DNA of 64,000 bases, from the NCBI RefSeq assembly GCF_016412875.1, contig NZ_JAEKPD010000007.1, positions 186,001-250,000 of the forward strand. Reading direction: 5' to 3'. The stretch is from Palleronia pontilimi (GTDB taxonomy: Bacteria > Pseudomonadota > Alphaproteobacteria > Rhodobacterales > Rhodobacteraceae). This document shows positions 31,819-39,555 of this stretch, one piece after another. A program made the translations under genes and the position numbers. The first letter of the stretch is position 1. Every line of letters begins with the position of its first letter. Below the pieces are notes generated by a model, which was not told the origin of the DNA, made no database searches, and worked only from the letters and a program-made list of their open reading frames with translations.

Positions 31819-32316
31819 ATGAGCGTTCTGCAAAGGGTGGAGACGGGCCAGGACCGCGGGTTCATCGCCGAATATCTGGACACGCTGTCGCTGGTCGAAC
31901 GACTGCACCGGCTGCTTCTGGATGTGCTGAAGGATGAATTCGAACGGGTCGGCGTGCTGGAGATCAATCCGGTTCAGGCGCTGCTGCTGTTCAACGTGGG
32001 CGACAACGAGGTGACCGCGGGCGAGCTGAAATCGCGCGGCTACTACCAGGGCTCGAACGTGTCCTACAACTTGAAGAAGCTGGTGGAGATGGGCTACATG
32101 CACCACCAGCGCTGCGAAATCGACCGCCGCGCCGTTAGGGTGAAGCTCACCCAGAAGGGGCGCGAGGTGCACAAGACCGTGGGACGCCTGTTCGCGCGCC
32201 ACGCCGAGGGGCTGCAATCGCGCAGCGTCCTGAGCCATGACCAGATCGACCTGATCAACGGCACCTTGCGCCGGGTCGAGCGTTATTGGACCGACCAGAT
32301 CCGCTATATCTACTGA
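31819..32316 (+). CDS. MarR-family regulator, LdtR-like
   Basis: 165 residues with a winged-helix domain. The recognition segment LKSRGYYQGSNVSYNLKKL and the wing DRRAVRVKLTQKG match the alphaproteobacterial LdtR type, which controls L,D-transpeptidase and osmotic or cell-wall stress genes in rhizobia-like bacteria. I choose the second of two adjacent ATGs, six bases after GAGG. Its last seven bases overlap the end of the convergent DUF1194 gene. Target genes here are unknown. Confidence 0.82.
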   Translation: MSVLQRVETGQDRGFIAEYLDTLSLVERLHRLLLDVLKDEFERVGVLEINPVQALLLFNVGDNEVTAGELKSRGYYQGSNVSYNLKKLVEMGYMHHQRCEIDRRAVRVKLTQKGREVHKTVGRLFARHAEGLQSRSVLSHDQIDLINGTLRRVERYWTDQIRYIY

Positions 32317-33017
32317 GCGGCGCCCAGAACCACGACCCGCAACTCGCGCAGAAGCTTGCGCTCCATGGCGTCGGCGTAATCGTCGAAGCCAAGCGCTGTT
32401 TCGACGAAGGCATCGGGGCCGTGGATCACTTCGGCCCTGAAATAGGACGACAGCTCGGCGATCTCGACCTGCCGCGCGTCGCCCGAAGATGGCGCGTCCG
32501 CGCCGATGGCCAGCGCGTTCACCGTGATCCCGTCCAGCGTGCCGCCCGCGCGCACGTCGCGGGGCCGGGGGCCGGTGTTGCGGGGCCCGTCGCCGGAAAT
32601 ATCCAGCGTGCGCTGCCAGCAGCCCGCGCGCTGGGCCAAAAGCCCCGCGCCGAAGGCCATCGCGGCACCGAGCCCGGTGGATGGCCCGAATGCGGGCCGC
32701 GTGGCGTCGCGCAGGCGCGCGGCGATATCGTCAATCACGTTACGTGAGACCACCGAAGCCCAGCGCTGGGTGAGCCGGACCTGGCCCGGATCGGACCACT
32801 CGAAAATTGCCAGGTCCACGGGGGTTTCCGGATCGTCGAGCAGTGCCGCCACGACCCTCGGGCGCTGCAATGCCGCCGCGAGCCCGTCCAGTTGCAATCG
32901 GTACTCGGTCGTGTCCACCGATCCCGAGATATCCAGGCCCAGCGCCAGGGCCTGGCGACAGGCGGCATCCGTCGGCGCGGCGAGGACAAGGGTCAGCGCC
33001 AGCGCGGGCCAGATCAC
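32310..33017 (-). CDS. DUF1194 VWA-like secreted protein, copy B
   Basis: 235 residues. A signal peptide ends near APTDAA and a von Willebrand A-like domain follows with the metal-site motif ALGLDISGSVD. The C-terminus contains YADAMERKLLREL, shared with the neighbouring copy. The gene starts at GTG overlapping the stop of copy A (GTGA). DUF1194 proteins are common in Rhodobacterales; binding of a protein partner through the metal site is the family expectation. The role is not known. Confidence 0.82.
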   Translation of the reverse strand: MIWPALALTLVLAAPTDAACRQALALGLDISGSVDTTEYRLQLDGLAAALQRPRVVAALLDDPETPVDLAIFEWSDPGQVRLTQRWASVVSRNVIDDIAARLRDATRPAFGPSTGLGAAMAFGAGLLAQRAGCWQRTLDISGDGPRNTGPRPRDVRAGGTLDGITVNALAIGADAPSSGDARQVEIAELSSYFRAEVIHGPDAFVETALGFDDYADAMERKLLRELRVVVLGAAQ

Positions 33018-33712
33018 TCGCTCGCTCCGATCACCCGGGCGCCCATTTCGCGGACCAGCTTGCGCCGCATCGCGCGCTCGAAATCCTCGAAGCCTTGCGC
33101 GACCTCGACGAAGGACGCGGGGCCGCGCACCACTTCGCGGGCGTACCACGTCACCACCGCCTCGTCGTGGCCGGTGACGACCAGCCCGTTCACGGTGACT
33201 TCGTCGAAGGGGAAGTTTCGATAGGCCAGGTCCGGCCCGAACCCGTCGTTGTTGATCCCGTCGCCCGAGACGTCCAACGTCTTGAAAAGACAGGGCGGCG
33301 CGCGCTCGAGCAGCCCCGAGGCATAGCCAAGCGCATATCCCAGCGCGGTCGGGAAGTCGGCGTAGGACCGCCGGGACGTGGCGATCGCATCGCTCGCCCG
33401 CTGCATGTCTTCGGGGCTGCTGAGCAGGATCCAGTCCAGCAGCAAGTCCTGCTGCCACCGCCCCGACCATTCGAAAACCGCCAGGGCGATGGGCTGGTCG
33501 GGGATGGCGGTCGCGGCTTGCACCACCTGCGGCGACAGCAGCGCGCGGGCCAGTCCCTGGCGCTGCAGCGCGTCTTCGCGGGCGTCGACCGAGGACGAGA
33601 TGTCCAGCCCCAGCAGCAGCGCCAGTCGGCACTGGGCGTCGGCCGCACCCGCCCAGACCGCCAGCGCGGCGGCGGCGCCTACCAGTGTCCGGTGTTTTCC
33701 ATGCTCGCCCAC
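33014..33712 (-). CDS. DUF1194 VWA-like secreted protein, copy A
   Basis: 232 residues, a paralogue of the next gene. A signal peptide ends near VWAGAADA and the VWA metal motif reads LLGLDISSSVD. Further shared segments are FKTLDVSGDGINN and FEDFERAMRRKLVREMG. The GTG start I use lies 34 bases inside the end of gloA, with AAGGAG about 11 bases upstream. The overlapping arrangement gloA-A-B implies one transcript. Both copies keep the metal-site residues, so they are probably functional. The reason for the tandem duplication is unknown. Confidence 0.8.
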   Translation of the reverse strand: MGEHGKHRTLVGAAAALAVWAGAADAQCRLALLLGLDISSSVDAREDALQRQGLARALLSPQVVQAATAIPDQPIALAVFEWSGRWQQDLLLDWILLSSPEDMQRASDAIATSRRSYADFPTALGYALGYASGLLERAPPCLFKTLDVSGDGINNDGFGPDLAYRNFPFDEVTVNGLVVTGHDEAVVTWYAREVVRGPASFVEVAQGFEDFERAMRRKLVREMGARVIGASE

Positions 33713-34113
33713 GGCTCTTGCGGCTCCTTCGCGTCGCCTTTTTGCAGAAGCTCGACCGAGATGTTGTCGGGCGAGCGCACGAAGGCCATGTGCCCGTCGC
33801 GCGGCGGGCGGTTGATCGTCACCCCCGCATCCTGCAACTTCGCGCACATCTCGTAAATATCGTCCACGCGGTAAGCCAGGTGGCCGAAATGGCGGCTGTC
33901 GTCGGGGAGCGCGTCGTCGCCGTCCCAATTGTAGGTGATCTCGACATCGGCCATGCCGTTGTCCTGCTCGGGCGGGCACATGAAGACCAGCGTGAAGCGC
34001 CCGGCCTCGACATCCTTGCGCTGCCGTTCCTTCAGGCCGAGAAGCTTGAAGAATTCCATCGTCTTGTCCAGGTCCTTGGCGCGGACCATGGTGTGCAGAT
34101 ATTCGATTGCCAT
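33679..34113 (-). CDS. gloA: Lactoylglutathione lyase (glyoxalase I)
   Basis: 144 residues in the vicinal-oxygen-chelate fold. Glyoxalase I converts the methylglyoxal-glutathione adduct to S-lactoylglutathione. Metal ligands are visible as the N-terminal His of LHTMVRAKDLDK, a His in HFGHLAYRVDD and the Glu of ISVELLQKG. The ATG has AGGAAG upstream. Its 3' end overlaps the first DUF1194 gene. A longer open frame to 34206 has no family support. Another VOC-family role is possible but the motif set favours GloA. Confidence 0.86.
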   Translation of the reverse strand: MAIEYLHTMVRAKDLDKTMEFFKLLGLKERQRKDVEAGRFTLVFMCPPEQDNGMADVEITYNWDGDDALPDDSRHFGHLAYRVDDIYEMCAKLQDAGVTINRPPRDGHMAFVRSPDNISVELLQKGDAKEPQEPWASMENTGHW

Positions 34114-34282: not shown

Positions 34283-35653
34283 TCAGAAGGTCGAAACCAC
34301 CCCGAGACTCACGCCGAGACGATCCGTGTCGAAAAGATCGACATTCGACGACCGCCGTGATCCCTCCAGCGTCACCGACGGCGCAAAGCCGTAGTAATCC
34401 AGTCCGCGAAATGTCGCCGTCACGGAACCCTGAACGACACGGTCCAACCGCCCACCCGACTGGTAGGGGGTGGCGTCAAAGTCGGTCAGGCCATAGGCGG
34501 CTCGGATTGTCAGACCCATCCCGCCGCCCAGACTTGTCAGGACCGGTCGACCCAGCGTGTACCCGACGCTCACCGTCCCGGTTGTGAAATCGAACGACAT
34601 GGAGTCCGCGCGGCTTTCGCTGGCGAACAATCCCAGCCGCAGCGTACCGCCGGTGATCCTGTGCGCAGCATCGAAGCTGACCCCCATGGAAAAGGGCGTC
34701 GCGTCATTTCCCTGCAACCGCTTGGTGTATTCCGCCGCGATTTCCGCCTGAAAGAACGTGCCTCCGTCGCTTCGCCAGCTTCGCCCCAGGGAGAATCGCG
34801 CGGATCGCGCCAAGGGGTGGCCGCCATACCAATCCGCGTTGACCACGCCCCCCAGAGACCAATATCCTGCGCCTGCACCGGCGCTGATATCGTGGACAAG
34901 TCCCAGTCCGACGCCGGTCTGCGCGAAATCACTGCCATCCGCGTCAGGCGCGATCCGCTTCGCTTCACCCGAAAGCCTGTAGGTCTGATGCGACAGGTCC
35001 AGCGACAGAGTCGTTCGACTGCGTTCACTCACGGAAATGATACGCTCGATGTCGGCACCGAATGCGAAGCGTGTTCCCGACAGCGCAAGCGCTGACCCGC
35101 TGAGGACAATGGGCAGGCCGAACAGTTCCACCTGATCGCTGGTTGCGCCGCCGTTCGCGTTCGATGTCGGCGCGACAGCGAAACTCAGTTTGACCCTTGT
35201 GGGGGTGCGATTTCGGACGTGGCGCAGATCGGCGACGGCGCGCCTGCGTTCGGCTTCACCGGGCGCGATCTCTGCGGCGCGGCGCAGCCAGAATTGCGAC
35301 CGCAACCGCGCGCCCTGAGATGACAGCGCCTGGGCGACCAGAAGGGCCGAGCGATATTTCTCGCCATCGGTTTCGGCCGTTCTCCAGGCCTGTTTCGCAG
35401 TCGCAAGGGCGGCGTCGTAGTCGCCCGCGTTCCGCTGCGCGCGGGACCGGACGAGAAGCGCGGTCACATCGGCAGGATCACGGGCGAGAAGGGCGTCCGT
35501 CAGGGCTTGCGCGGTTGCGTTGTCGCCCTCCGCCACGGCGGTGACGGCGCGTGTGCGCATCTGATCGGGAGACAAAGTTTCGGCCGTCGCCGCCGCTGTG
35601 AGCGCAACGGCGATACCGATCGATAAAACCGATCGAAGCACCCGATGCGGCAT
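34283..35653 (-). CDS. Slam-like TPR/outer-membrane barrel protein (DUF560 type)
   Basis: 456 residues. A signal peptide ends near ATAETLS. Residues ~25-150 are tetratricopeptide-like helices. Residues ~155-456 alternate polar and hydrophobic strands and end in a terminal Phe (GVVSTF), as in outer-membrane barrels. This layout is that of surface lipoprotein assembly modulators (Slam, DUF560), which move specific lipoproteins to the cell surface. Its ATG overlaps the stop of a TbpB-like lipoprotein gene (TGATG), exactly the expected partner. The assignment rests on architecture and context; sequence motifs are not distinctive. Confidence 0.75.
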   Translation of the reverse strand: MPHRVLRSVLSIGIAVALTAAATAETLSPDQMRTRAVTAVAEGDNATAQALTDALLARDPADVTALLVRSRAQRNAGDYDAALATAKQAWRTAETDGEKYRSALLVAQALSSQGARLRSQFWLRRAAEIAPGEAERRRAVADLRHVRNRTPTRVKLSFAVAPTSNANGGATSDQVELFGLPIVLSGSALALSGTRFAFGADIERIISVSERSRTTLSLDLSHQTYRLSGEAKRIAPDADGSDFAQTGVGLGLVHDISAGAGAGYWSLGGVVNADWYGGHPLARSARFSLGRSWRSDGGTFFQAEIAAEYTKRLQGNDATPFSMGVSFDAAHRITGGTLRLGLFASESRADSMSFDFTTGTVSVGYTLGRPVLTSLGGGMGLTIRAAYGLTDFDATPYQSGGRLDRVVQGSVTATFRGLDYYGFAPSVTLEGSRRSSNVDLFDTDRLGVSLGVVSTF

Positions 35654-36762
35654 CAGCCTTCCGGACGTCGGTAGACGATGAAGCCGCCCGTTTCGCGCGC
35701 GGTGACGTTTTCGAACCGGGGATCCTGGCTGGTCAACACGACGATACCGGTGATTTCCTCGGCATCTTCACCCGAAAGGACAGCGAAGAATTGTCCATCC
35801 TCATAGTTGTCGGATTCGCCGGGCAAGCGCGAGAAGACGTCCGTCACGATTTCGCCGCTGGCTTTGGCCGCACTATCGTTGATGACCATCCTGACCTCGG
35901 GAAGGGTCGCACGCCCTTCTTCAAGAGCACCCGCGATTTCGGCGGTGATGTCGTTCCCCGCCAGATCAAACACCCGCCGGTCGAAAATCGTCGCGTTTAC
36001 ACCGTCACCGATGGTATTCGGCTGTTGGTTGAAATCTTCGAAATCGATCTGCACGGTTGCGCGACCGGTCGTATATTCAAGACCGCCGCGACCGTCGAAG
36101 TCCCGCAGCCCGGCATATTCCCCCTTATAAGAGCCCTGTCCGGTCTGGGGAATCTCAACGTTGCCATTGCGCTGGTAGATGAAGCCGCCGAAGCCGTACG
36201 GGATGTAGGAGCCCGTGCGCACGATAGCGAATTCCGACTGCCCCGAAGGACTTACACCGTAGACAGCGCGGTACAGGAATTGGTCGATCTGATCGCCGTT
36301 CAGCGGATCCGGTACCGGCTCGGTCGGCTCATATACCGCGAACTGCGATATCGACTCGCGCGGCTGGCCGCCTGGCGGCGTGGTCGGCACCGGGTCGAGC
36401 GTGGCGACAGTCGGGCTGCGGCGATAGGTGCTTTGTTGGTCGGTGTCGGGGCCCACATCCGGGTCGCCGTCAAACGCCAGATTGTCCACGGTGAACGTGT
36501 CGGTCTCGCTGTTGTAGCTGACCCTCTCCACGTAGCCCGAGCCCTCTCCGCGTTCCTCGCGGCGGGTGATGTCGGAACTTGAGCTCGGGCTTTCCGTGCC
36601 CGGCGGCAGATCGCCGTCGCTGTCGATCGGCGTGACCGGATCTCCATCCTCACCCGTGCCGCCATCGACCTCGTCGTCGTGAATGGGCTCGAACGGGTTG
36701 CCGCCATCGCAGGCGCCAAGCGCCAGTATCGCGCAGAGCGCGAGGGAATATCTGGGGATCAT
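35653..36762 (-). CDS. TbpB-like surface lipoprotein, probable Slam substrate
   Basis: 369 residues. The lipoprotein signal ends in ILALGAC (Cys ~18). A long acidic, Gly/Pro/Ser-rich linker follows to about residue 65, then beta-rich regions and a C-terminal barrel-like domain with [16 protein letters not shown] and a final [10 protein letters not shown], resembling transferrin-binding-protein-like (TbpB) barrels. Such lipoproteins are displayed on the surface by Slam. The flexible acidic linker is typical of surface lipoproteins. The start ATG has GAGG about nine bases upstream. The ligand, metal or otherwise, is unknown. Confidence 0.75.
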
Positions 36763-36974: not shown

Positions 36975-37880
36975 ATGCCCCTTTCGCCCGAGCAACAGGC
37001 CGACATCGACGACCAGCGCGCCGAAAGCCACCAGACCCTGCGCGCCACGGTGCCGGGGATGGAGGCGCGTCTTTACCGCGCCCACGAGGTGCTGGATCAC
37101 GGGCTGGTGCGCGTCATCGACTATATGGGCGACGACGCCGCCATCACCCAGGCCGCGCGGGTCAGCTACGGGCGTGGCACCAAGTCGGTGCAGAACGACG
37201 AGGGGCTGATCCGCTACCTCATGCGGCACTGGCACTCGACCCCATTCGAGATGTGCGAGATCAAGCTGCACGTGAAGCTGCCGGTCTTCGTTGCGCGCCA
37301 GTGGATCCGCCACCGCACCGCCAACGTGAACGAGTACTCGGCCCGCTACTCGGTGCTGGACCGCGAATTTTACATCCCCGCGCCCGAACACCTGGCCGCG
37401 CAATCGTCGATCAACAACCAGGGCCGCGGTGCGGTGCTGGAGGGCGACGAGGCCGCCCGTGTCCTCGAAACCCTCAAATCCGACGCCGACCGCGCCTATG
37501 ACCACTACGAATCCATGCTGTCCCAGGACGGCCAGCAGGGCCTTGCCCGCGAACTGGCCCGCATGAACCTGCCCGCCAACGTCTATACGCAATGGTACTG
37601 GAAGGTGGACCTGCACAACCTCTTCCACTTCCTGCGCCTGCGCGCCGACCCCCACGCGCAATACGAGATCCGCGTCTATGCCGACGTGATCTGCGAGATC
37701 GTGAAGGACTGGGTCCCGCTCGCCTATGCCGCGTTCGAGGAATACCGGTTAGGGGGCGCGCAACTGTCGGCGACGGCGGTGGCGGTGGTGAAACGGATGA
37801 TCGCCGGGGAGACGGTGACGCAGGAGACGTCCGGTCTGACGAAGCGGGAGTGGGGGGAGTTGATGGGGGTTGTTGGGTGA
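36975..37880 (+). CDS. thyX: FAD-dependent thymidylate synthase
   Basis: 301 residues. ThyX makes dTMP from dUMP using FAD and methylene-tetrahydrofolate. The signature [15 protein letters not shown] matches the ThyX motif RHRxxSxNExSxR, with Ala for the first Ser. The long upstream frame to 36783 has no similarity, so I start at MPLSPEQQ, although its ribosome site (AAGGA) is distant. It diverges from the lipoprotein cassette. Its last codon overlaps the GTG of the low-GC AlbA_2 gene. Confidence 0.94.
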
Positions 37881-38941
37881 CCGTAAGTCAAGAAGAATGT
37901 CTCTCTCGTCTCTCGCCTATCCCTGTCGGGGATGGCTTTCGCGTCAAATCGCGCGAATCCGTCGACTTAGAGTTCAAGCGTGAGCTCACTCTTGCTACCT
38001 TCCGGAAATCTCTAAAAACAGTTGCTGCATTTTCTAACTGTAAAGGTGGATGGATCGTATTCGGAGTATCAGATAGGCCACGTAATATTGTGGGTATAGG
38101 TGCTGCTGACTTAGACGATGGCCAGTTGTCCGAACAGGTCATTCAATCAATTTCGCCTGCTCCCGATTGGTCGATGACTTATCTTGATATATTTGGTCTT
38201 CGCGTCGCAATTTTCGAAGTTTTTCAGAACCCCCGACTGCCCACTATTGCAATTCGCGATCTCAGTGGAGGTCAAGGGGAAGATCCACTTTTGAGGCAAG
38301 GCACAGTTTACACGAGGCGTAGGGGACAGACGTCCCCGATCACCGGAGCTGAATTTACGCAGATGATGCGCATGAGGGACGATTTGACTGAGGCGAGGAT
38401 ATTTCAGTTCCTCGGGCGCGGTCGAGACATAGGATTTGACCGTGCGATCGTCGCAGGTGGTAAGGGTGAAGCCCAGCAAGATGCCGAGAGGATGACCTTC
38501 TATATCCCTTCTAGCTCAGCCAGTGACCTCAATATCGTTGATCGCGCAAGGCTGATAGAAGAAGACGGAGCGCCAGCCTACGAAATCGTAGGAAATGTGA
38601 ACTTGTTTGCACCCGGCGACATTGATCCGAGACTGCCCATGCGCGCGGCGGAAACTGCCGCTAGCCAGCTAGAAGAGATTCACAATATTTTTGGTAACGA
38701 TTTCCCTTGGACTTTCTCACACTTAAAGAAGGCAGCGTCGCATTTGGGGTTTTGGCGTCGGACAGAGGGTGACGGTGTGAACACCGGTGTTGAGCCATTA
38801 ACTGGAACTACAATTTATTTCCGAGCCGGAAGGGAGGAGATCCTGAATTTTGCGAGGCAAAATCCGAGTGAATTCGTAGATGTAGTTGCGTCTCAAGCGA
38901 CACGGAAAAGATGGCGTGACGCGCAAGAGCTGGTGCAGTAA
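37877..38941 (+). CDS. AlbA_2 (Schlafen-like) domain protein, low GC
   Basis: 354 residues. The N-terminal ~120 residues form an AlbA_2 domain with [12 protein letters not shown] and [17 protein letters not shown], found in Schlafen-like proteins and in many anti-phage and regulatory proteins. The rest is unrecognised. It begins at GTG overlapping the thyX stop (GTGA). Base composition is foreign: 38041-38100 has 26 of 60 G+C against 39 of 60 at 37681-37740 in thyX. Codon use is also unlike its neighbours. It is probably a transferred gene that landed on the end of thyX. Function unknown. Confidence 0.78.
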
Positions 38942-39121: not shown

Positions 39122-39186
39122 GGGCAGCGCCCGACCCGCCCCCCAGGGCGGGCGCTTCACGCCCACCCTCGGGTCGGGCGCTGCCC
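39122..39186. repeat. 17-bp perfect inverted repeat
   Basis: GGGCAGCGCCCGACCCG (39122-39138) is the exact complement of CGGGTCGGGCGCTGCCC (39170-39186). The second arm recurs as a direct copy at 39322-39338, tying it into the 150-bp repeat. Confidence 0.85.
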
Positions 39187-39424
39187 CGTCCGCGATGAAC
39201 GACCCTCGGTCCCTGTGACAGATGCCCCCCTGCGCATTGCTTGCGCAATCCGCGTTCGACCCTTGGGGCTTTCCACTGGAAAGCCCCATCGCGGGCAGGC
39301 CCGCGACCGGGCCTCACCCCTCGGGTCGGGCGCTGCCCTCATCGCATTGCACGACCCTCGGCCAACCTGACAAACGCCCCGGCGCATTGCTTGCGCAATC
39401 CGCGTTCGGCCCTTGGGGCTTTCC
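39166..39424 (+). repeat. Two diverged ~150-bp direct repeat units
   Basis: A 43-base segment starting GCGCATTGCTTGCGCAATCC at 39232-39274 recurs at 39382-39424 with one difference seen, and the 17-bp block at 39170-39186 recurs at 39322-39338. The offsets are 150 and 152 bases, so two units about 150 bases long lie in tandem, with diverged sequence between the conserved blocks. This looks like a dispersed intergenic element rather than coding sequence. Confidence 0.75.
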
Positions 39425-39555
39425 GCCCGAAAACCCATCGCGGGCGAGCGCGCTGGTCTTCGCTCGGCGCTCACAAATTAGGCGCGGTATCAAACCTGTG
39501 TTACCTTACGTCACCCTGGGCAATTTCGCCCTCGGGGAGAAGTGGGAGAACATTC

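Follow-up and report, generated by a model that had tools for sequence, protein, structure and literature searches.

The question raised by this locus is whether two overlapping genes of Palleronia pontilimi encode a lipoprotein and the outer-membrane protein that carries it to the cell surface. The pair spans positions 34283-36762, on the minus strand, of the 64,000-nucleotide stretch analysed here (the window), with the lipoprotein gene 5' and the exporter gene 3' according to the open reading frame (ORF) coordinates and translations. Both ORFs and their TGATG overlap were confirmed where the original prediction, made from the DNA letters before this analysis, had placed them (Table 1). That prediction had further proposed a Slam-like exporter with a TbpB-type lipoprotein in a marine alphaproteobacterium of roseobacter type. 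The type of genome was borne out, as congener G490 was recognised by its stretch (L178) as Palleronia pelagia and Palleronia belongs to the Roseobacteraceae, and fold, family links and gene order supported the proposed function. Since fold, family and gene order all agree, we consider the pair, at a probability of about 0.86, to be a Slam / type 11 secretion system (T11SS) exporter and its surface-lipoprotein cargo, with translocation as proposed.

The AlphaFold model of the exporter (predicted local distance difference test, pLDDT, 94.6; predicted template modelling score, pTM, 0.85) contained tetratricopeptide repeat (TPR) helices up to residue 149, followed by 14 long strands spanning residues 152-454. 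The predicted architecture of TPRs plus C-terminal barrel thus held, and the C-terminal Phe was present in the ORF. The closest solved barrels in the VIA comparison were CymA (Z 21.1) and OmpG (Z 20.0), both of which we take to be 14-stranded, and the exporter profile matched TPR proteins in the PDB. A Slam has been described as a TPR domain with a predicted 14-stranded DUF560 barrel (PMC5449769). In Pfam, the window exporter alone gave TPR and SlipAM matches, all of them sub-threshold, and its homology to DUF560/SlipAM was established via relatives. SlipAM was matched at E<=1 by 68 of the 73 aligned exporter members (alignment A2; best E 4.2e-11). Moreover, a relative in genome G161, 41% identical to the window exporter over residues 23-456, scored 36.2 bits, above the SlipAM cut-off, and was included in the 66 of 198 family genomes having a SlipAM match at E<=0.001.

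Searching the same 198 genomes with the window exporter gave matches at E<=0.001 in 113, some of them weak or TPR-only, and one match in its own genome. In a class-level survey 144 of 289 genomes were matched, a number not used as an exporter count, since most listed rows covered the TPR part only. A pattern scan of the genome contigs with the exporter produced 57 matches and no confirmed relative, which is a limit of that method, since the direct exporter search found many. Strong SlipAM matches (116-117 bits) were seen at G086:C3, G001:C12 and G156:C18. The window exporter matched other places in G086 and G156, and matched the SlipAM place of G001 only weakly; there are thus further Slam types within the family.

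The lipobox LGAC was read from the sequence motif at residues 15-18 of the lipoprotein, and the acidic linker that had been predicted follows it (Table 1). The AlphaFold model (pLDDT 83.0, pTM 0.80) had a barrel region with eight strands between residues 192 and 365 and others before them, three-residue strands not being counted. The highest VIA matches were fHbp (8bk2; Z 15.0, 2.5 A, 168 aligned) and HphA (8gmm; Z 14.3), followed by NHBA (12.3), TbpB (11.7) and HpuA (11.5), with HphA and other hemophilins aligned over cargo residues 62-366 at Z 13.4-14.3. Foldseek listed TbpB in its first row (E 4.9e-7) and also NHBA, a hemophilin and an fHbp chimera at E<=0.001. The predicted TbpB-like C-terminus held, as the model matched the barrels of fHbp, NHBA and TbpB, with the qualification that the cargo is single-lobed and that in VIA the two-lobe TbpB ranked below fHbp and hemophilin. 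Among its relatives, FHBP_C was matched by 15 of the 38 cargoes of alignment A1 (best 1.1e-6) and TbpB_B_D by three, and the remaining 35 cargoes matched TbpB_B_D in 17 cases and FHBP_C in 13. By hhalign these sets proved homologous to each other (probability 100, E 1.4e-44). A PDB sequence search with the cargo profile returned nothing up to E 10. Single-sequence searches gave weak matches to proteins of other kinds, which were not accepted.

Some details of the cargo family were observed besides. A tail with Cys was present at the end of 26 of 73 cargoes. Most rows of alignment A3 (e.g. L103:5597-6487) carried two Cys about nine residues apart near the end, which could close the tail by a disulphide, and the L061 and L105 cargoes in the same alignment had a long insertion close to the C-terminal end of the barrel region.

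The pairing was then surveyed in two samples of relatives. The first consisted of 80 near-full-length exporter places (79 genomes) from the family search, fragmentary or low-scoring places being skipped. The second consisted of 80 named loci picked by ThyX similarity, not by exporter, at least nine of which overlap earlier stretches; two loci with neither exporter nor glyoxalase gene were set aside. In the first sample, a lipobox ORF lay directly upstream of the exporter in 73 of the 80 loci, ending at most 60 nt before the exporter start in 67 and touching or overlapping the exporter in 23. Even with the first 25 residues removed from each cargo, 72 of the 73 were found related by a leave-one-out hidden Markov model (HMM) or by the HMM of the other set, compared with 0/73 of the shuffles. 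Four further loci contained a related cargo: in L034 and L074 a contig edge truncates it, in L048 it is divided between frames and in L056 the exporter next to it is disrupted. This gives 76 of 80 loci in total. In L056 (G038) the exporter frame is broken by a TGA, and the adjoining cargo is related and long. The named sample gave a cargo match in 28 of 30 exporter loci. The ORF pair is not a chance occurrence, given the exporter matches in 113 of 198 family genomes and the 73 of 80 loci in which a lipobox ORF immediately precedes the exporter.

To what extent the two genes behave as one was seen from genomes in which the exporter is absent. Among 85 exporter-negative family genomes, 61 loci were fetched; left out were 13 lower-scoring glyoxalase matches, one weak match, five genomes without a match and five not searched. 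The distance between the ThyX and glyoxalase genes, measured between aligned gene ends, was 1977-2990 bp in the 60 exporter loci of the first sample with both genes. In the 50 exporter-less loci with both genes it was at most 392 bp in 43 and 934-2323 bp in seven. In the named sample, the gap was 2489-3594 bp in the 24 exporter loci with both genes and at most 372 bp in 41 of 48 exporter-less loci. The exporter HMM (E<=0.01, ORFs of at least 150 aa) matched nothing in the 61 exporter-less stretches of the first sample; cargo was searched there with the A1 profile only. Three of the 48 named exporter-less loci had a cargo match (L207, L247 and L250), L250 being apparently the genome of the disrupted exporter L056. 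Within the genus of the window, the pair was found in three of 14 genomes, with a fourth match (G492, E 8e-5) confined to the TPR part. In 10 of the 11 other genomes ThyX and the glyoxalase gene were 78-209 bp apart, and one had no ThyX in the fetched stretch. Since ThyX and the glyoxalase gene lie close together in most loci without the exporter, exporter and cargo come and go as a unit, and the links of the exporter with these two genes appear to reflect conserved order at the edges of an insertion site. In one of the 61 stretches, L153 (G176), a cargo-type ORF lay between ThyX and the glyoxalase gene with no exporter found in the stretch, and may be a remnant.

Known Slams let an unfolded lipoprotein, for which Skp serves as holdase, pass through their barrel (PMC9090332). 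By analogy with them, the lipoprotein would be made with a signal peptidase II (SPII) signal, then lipidated at Cys18 and held unfolded in the periplasm, probably by Skp. Its route across the outer membrane would be the 14-stranded barrel of the TPR protein, the product of the downstream gene that overlaps its own. The fHbp/hemophilin-like domain would fold once it has reached the external side of this membrane, where the lipid anchor and acidic linker would keep the folded, surface-exposed cargo tethered. Since its own genome has one OmpH/Skp-family gene and one cargo-type match, the exporter-cargo pair is probably dedicated.

Several results weigh against a Slam/T11SS pair. The window exporter on its own scored 12.4 bits with SlipAM, for which the cut-off is 22, the SlipAM search of its own genome gave no match, and the exporter profile gave a second match in that genome, outside the rows listed. 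The window lipoprotein alone matched no Pfam family, and its SPII signal is read only from the lipobox motif. No related cargo was found in four of the 80 exporter loci, the upstream lipoprotein being unrelated in L064, none being found in L068 and L077 and the sequence of L071 ending 95 bases upstream, and two of the 30 named exporter loci had no cargo match. No Slam structure was among the rows listed by Foldseek and VIA, an absence that we judge uninformative. The top Foldseek rows for the exporter were the polysaccharide exporters BcsC (E 2.7e-9) and PelBC (2.3e-8), which likewise combine TPRs with a barrel and would fit a protein that exports polysaccharide in the manner of BcsC, PelB or PgaA, with the lipoprotein as an accessory. 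We regard this as extremely improbable, given that the sequence links of the exporter lead to SlipAM, its closest barrels in VIA are CymA and OmpG, its regular partner is an fHbp-like lipoprotein and no polysaccharide synthase was found among the ten neighbour ORFs scanned. The two proteins might also cooperate with the lipoprotein on the periplasmic side, where it could plug the barrel or help to assemble it. This is very unlikely, since both folds match pairs with a translocated lipoprotein (PMC9090332). The cargo is also highly diverse (mean p-distance 0.68), as surface proteins would be, with the exporters equally so (0.70). A further reading, suggested by the hemophilin alignments given above, would make the cargo a haem-binding hemophore of the HphA kind. 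Hemophilins ligate haem via His. The single His of the window cargo is residue 28, within the linker, and Trp is absent from this cargo. Over those columns of A1 that the window protein fills, there was no position at which His, Met, Cys or Trp reached 40%, Cys18 and the signal region excepted. Since no such column is conserved besides Cys18, haem binding of the hemophilin kind appears unlikely. Furthermore, no TonB receptor was present among the ten neighbour ORFs scanned, and TonB links are reported to be rare in the marine cluster of such systems (PMC12282271). A hemophore is accordingly a highly improbable alternative, and a Slam/T11SS exporter with a surface-lipoprotein cargo remains the preferred reading of the pair.

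Grossman et al. 2025 raised the possibility that the exporter also has the DUF1194 proteins encoded nearby as clients or partners; the control for the published co-occurrence was random outer-membrane proteins (PMC12282271). Our own DUF1194 tests were made without correction for relatedness, on two samples that overlap in part. DUF1194 was commoner at exporter loci than at exporter-less ones in the first sample (54/72 vs 34/59, p 0.041), in the named sample (21/30 vs 24/48, p 0.10) and in the two pooled (75/102 vs 58/107, p 0.004). When first-sample negatives with SlipAM elsewhere were removed, the comparison with no synteny condition became 54/72 vs 32/54 (p 0.08). Among first-sample loci that kept the MarR-like gene, the difference was gone (45/57 with exporter vs 26/35 without, p 0.62; 45/57 vs 25/32, p 1.0, with the same negatives removed). 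This full disappearance at constant synteny was not fully sustained, as the MarR-like-keeping loci of the named sample still differed (17/18 vs 17/27, p 0.031); the pooled figures were 62/75 vs 43/62 (p 0.07). Distances of DUF1194 showed no correlation with those of the exporter (n=55; r 0.06 and 0.03), and within the genus DUF1194 was kept in seven of 11 exporter-less loci. Since it is often kept at exporter-less loci (58/107), DUF1194 does not depend on the exporter. Conserved gene order looks like the explanation for much of the published co-occurrence. A modest association of DUF1194 with the exporter remains and would fit a weaker real link; that DUF1194 proteins are clients or partners of the exporter is improbable.

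Compared with known systems, the pair is not new in kind, since a system of these families was already predicted in 2025. The Rhodobacteraceae/Roseobacteraceae locus described there by prediction, marine cluster 3, has the same gene set as the window: ThyX, a barrel cargo lipoprotein, a T11SS outer-membrane protein, a glyoxalase (lactoylglutathione lyase) and at least one DUF1194 (Grossman et al. 2025, PMC12282271). The cargo there has 282-375 aa, compared with 369 in the window, and the published locus is labelled with tags of Ruegeria pomeroyi. The Ruegeria pomeroyi locus in our survey (L244) had the same gene order, with an exporter 36% and a cargo 40% identical to those of the window. We liken the window locus to cluster 3 by gene order, families and this Ruegeria pomeroyi locus, and not by network membership; their agreement suggests that the surveyed loci are that cluster. 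For cluster 3, 0.21 predicted cargo per exporter was reported, with three causes offered, including below-threshold similarity (PMC12282271), whereas a related cargo adjoined the exporter in 76 of 80 surveyed loci. If the surveyed loci are indeed cluster 3, the published scarcity of cargo is therefore likely to reflect the similarity threshold. Functional links of DUF1194 were also raised there, whereas DUF1194 in our survey often occurred without an exporter. The survey thus adds to the published locus a near-constant cargo, gain and loss as a unit, and DUF1194 kept without the exporter.

The neisserial Slam1 and Slam2, with TbpB, fHbp and HpuA, share with the window pair the TPR domain and predicted 14-stranded barrel as well as a client lipoprotein with a C-terminal barrel, and Slam2 and HpuA resemble it also in gene adjacency. 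They are distant in sequence, as seen from the SlipAM score of the window exporter. Unlike them, the window pair has no TonB receptor among the scanned ORFs and forms an overlapping two-gene unit between ThyX and glyoxalase genes. The Slam-exported hemophores HphA and Hpl match the cargo structurally over about 200 residues; the window cargo family differs from them in having no conserved His. The window cargo carries a lipobox, and of the hemophilin-like groups described in PMC12282271 one is mostly soluble and the second mostly lipidated.

We also asked how far the pair varies together and apart from its flanks. Over the 54 loci with all four genes, exporter distances correlated with cargo distances (Mantel r 0.51, p 0.0005), whereas neither correlated with the ThyX plus glyoxalase distances (exporter r -0.02, cargo r -0.01). 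Among all gene pairs of the locus, exporter-cargo was the highest (r 0.52), with flank-flank values of -0.01 to 0.37. The correlation of exporter with aminotransferase distances (r 0.21, p 0.007) argues against complete independence. Between the window and two congeners, the exporter was 42-43% and the cargo 53% identical, compared with 89-90% for ThyX, 94% for the glyoxalase, about 95% for the aminotransferase, 90-91% for the MarR-like protein, 79-80% for DUF1194 and 60% for HTH_3. The two congeners were 97.7% identical to each other in the exporter and 99.3% in ThyX. At the DNA level, the window and the congeners shared 76-93% in ThyX, 51-69% in the cassette, 80-91% in the glyoxalase gene and 46-55% beyond ThyX. 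The empty sites, the presence of the pair in three of 14 congeners, the similar flanks beside a divergent cassette and the mostly flank-independent exporter-cargo distances suggest, tentatively, a chromosomal exchange site between ThyX and the glyoxalase gene, at which exporter plus lipoprotein cassettes might be replaced or lost among marine alphaproteobacteria. Such a site might resemble surface-antigen loci, the displayed protein changing while its own exporter travels along. In a quick-method exporter tree (45 rows) the congeners stood apart. The tree uniting them was slightly better, by 2.62 log units, and the approximately unbiased (AU) test did not reject one common clade for the exporters of the genus (p 0.57). 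This result, the low identity of HTH_3 and the divergence of the DNA past ThyX count against exchange, which we consider rather unlikely; the locus is otherwise read as one that diverges fast and often loses the pair. The test of horizontal replacement gave no proof of it, and very fast divergence remains its alternative.

The coordinates of the pair, its parts and its neighbours are given in Table 1. On the 3' side of the exporter, the glyoxalase-family gene and the two DUF1194 genes follow on the same strand, with the MarR-like and HTH_3 genes on the opposite strand and then the aminotransferase gene; the neighbourhood Pfam scan covered ten neighbour ORFs of the pair. On the other side, an ORF with a Schlafen AlbA_2 domain (window 37592-38941; Pfam E 3e-17) adjoins ThyX. 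Positions 39166-39436 contain two imperfect direct repeats, each about 60 nt long, which share 90% and 78% identity with their partners and are spaced by 150-152 nt, and TRF found no tandem repeats at 38.8-39.8 kb of the window. The promoter and terminator scan gave one site each, not above shuffled sequences.

Table 1. Features of the exporter-cargo locus in window coordinates
Feature	Position	Strand	Basis
Slam-like / T11SS outer-membrane exporter	34283..35653	-	456 aa; C-terminal residue Phe; AlphaFold model; SlipAM via relatives
Exporter periplasmic TPR domain	35207..35569	-	Residues 29-149; seven helices in model; sub-cut-off Pfam TPR_16 / TPR_19; PDB TPR matches
Exporter membrane barrel	34292..35200	-	Residues 152-454; 14 long strands; CymA and OmpG nearest solved barrels
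Lipoprotein, predicted cargo	35653..36762	-	369 aa; AlphaFold model; fHbp Z 15.0, HphA Z 14.3
Signal peptide with lipobox, Cys18	36709..36762	-	Cys18 invariant in 38 rows of alignment A1
Acidic linker, residues 19-56	36595..36708	-	12 D/E, 0 K/R; model confidence mostly low
Lipoprotein C-terminal barrel region, residues 166-369	35656..36267	-	Z 12.3 with the C-terminal domain of NHBA, aligned at 166-368
TGATG, cargo stop overlapping exporter start	35651..35655	-	Read from sequence
ThyX (Thy1 family), divergent from lipoprotein; edge of insertion site	36975..37880	+	Pfam Thy1 E 2.1e-57
Glyoxalase-family gene (start taken at MAIEYL); other edge of insertion site	33679..34113	-	Pfam Glyoxalase E 6.1e-15
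First DUF1194 ORF (true start uncertain), conserved neighbour	33014..33979	-	Pfam DUF1194 E 6.2e-65
Second DUF1194 ORF (true start uncertain), conserved neighbour	32310..33632	-	Pfam DUF1194 E 4.5e-60

Taken together, these results affect some published inferences, in that the scarcity of cargo looks like a threshold effect, and conserved order round an insertion site appears to account for the links with ThyX and glyoxalase and for a large part of the one with DUF1194. Slam-type lipoprotein display in roseobacter-type bacteria is supported, with the cargo directly attached to its exporter, and the presence and absence of the pair within one genus offers a natural comparison for finding the ligand of the cargo.

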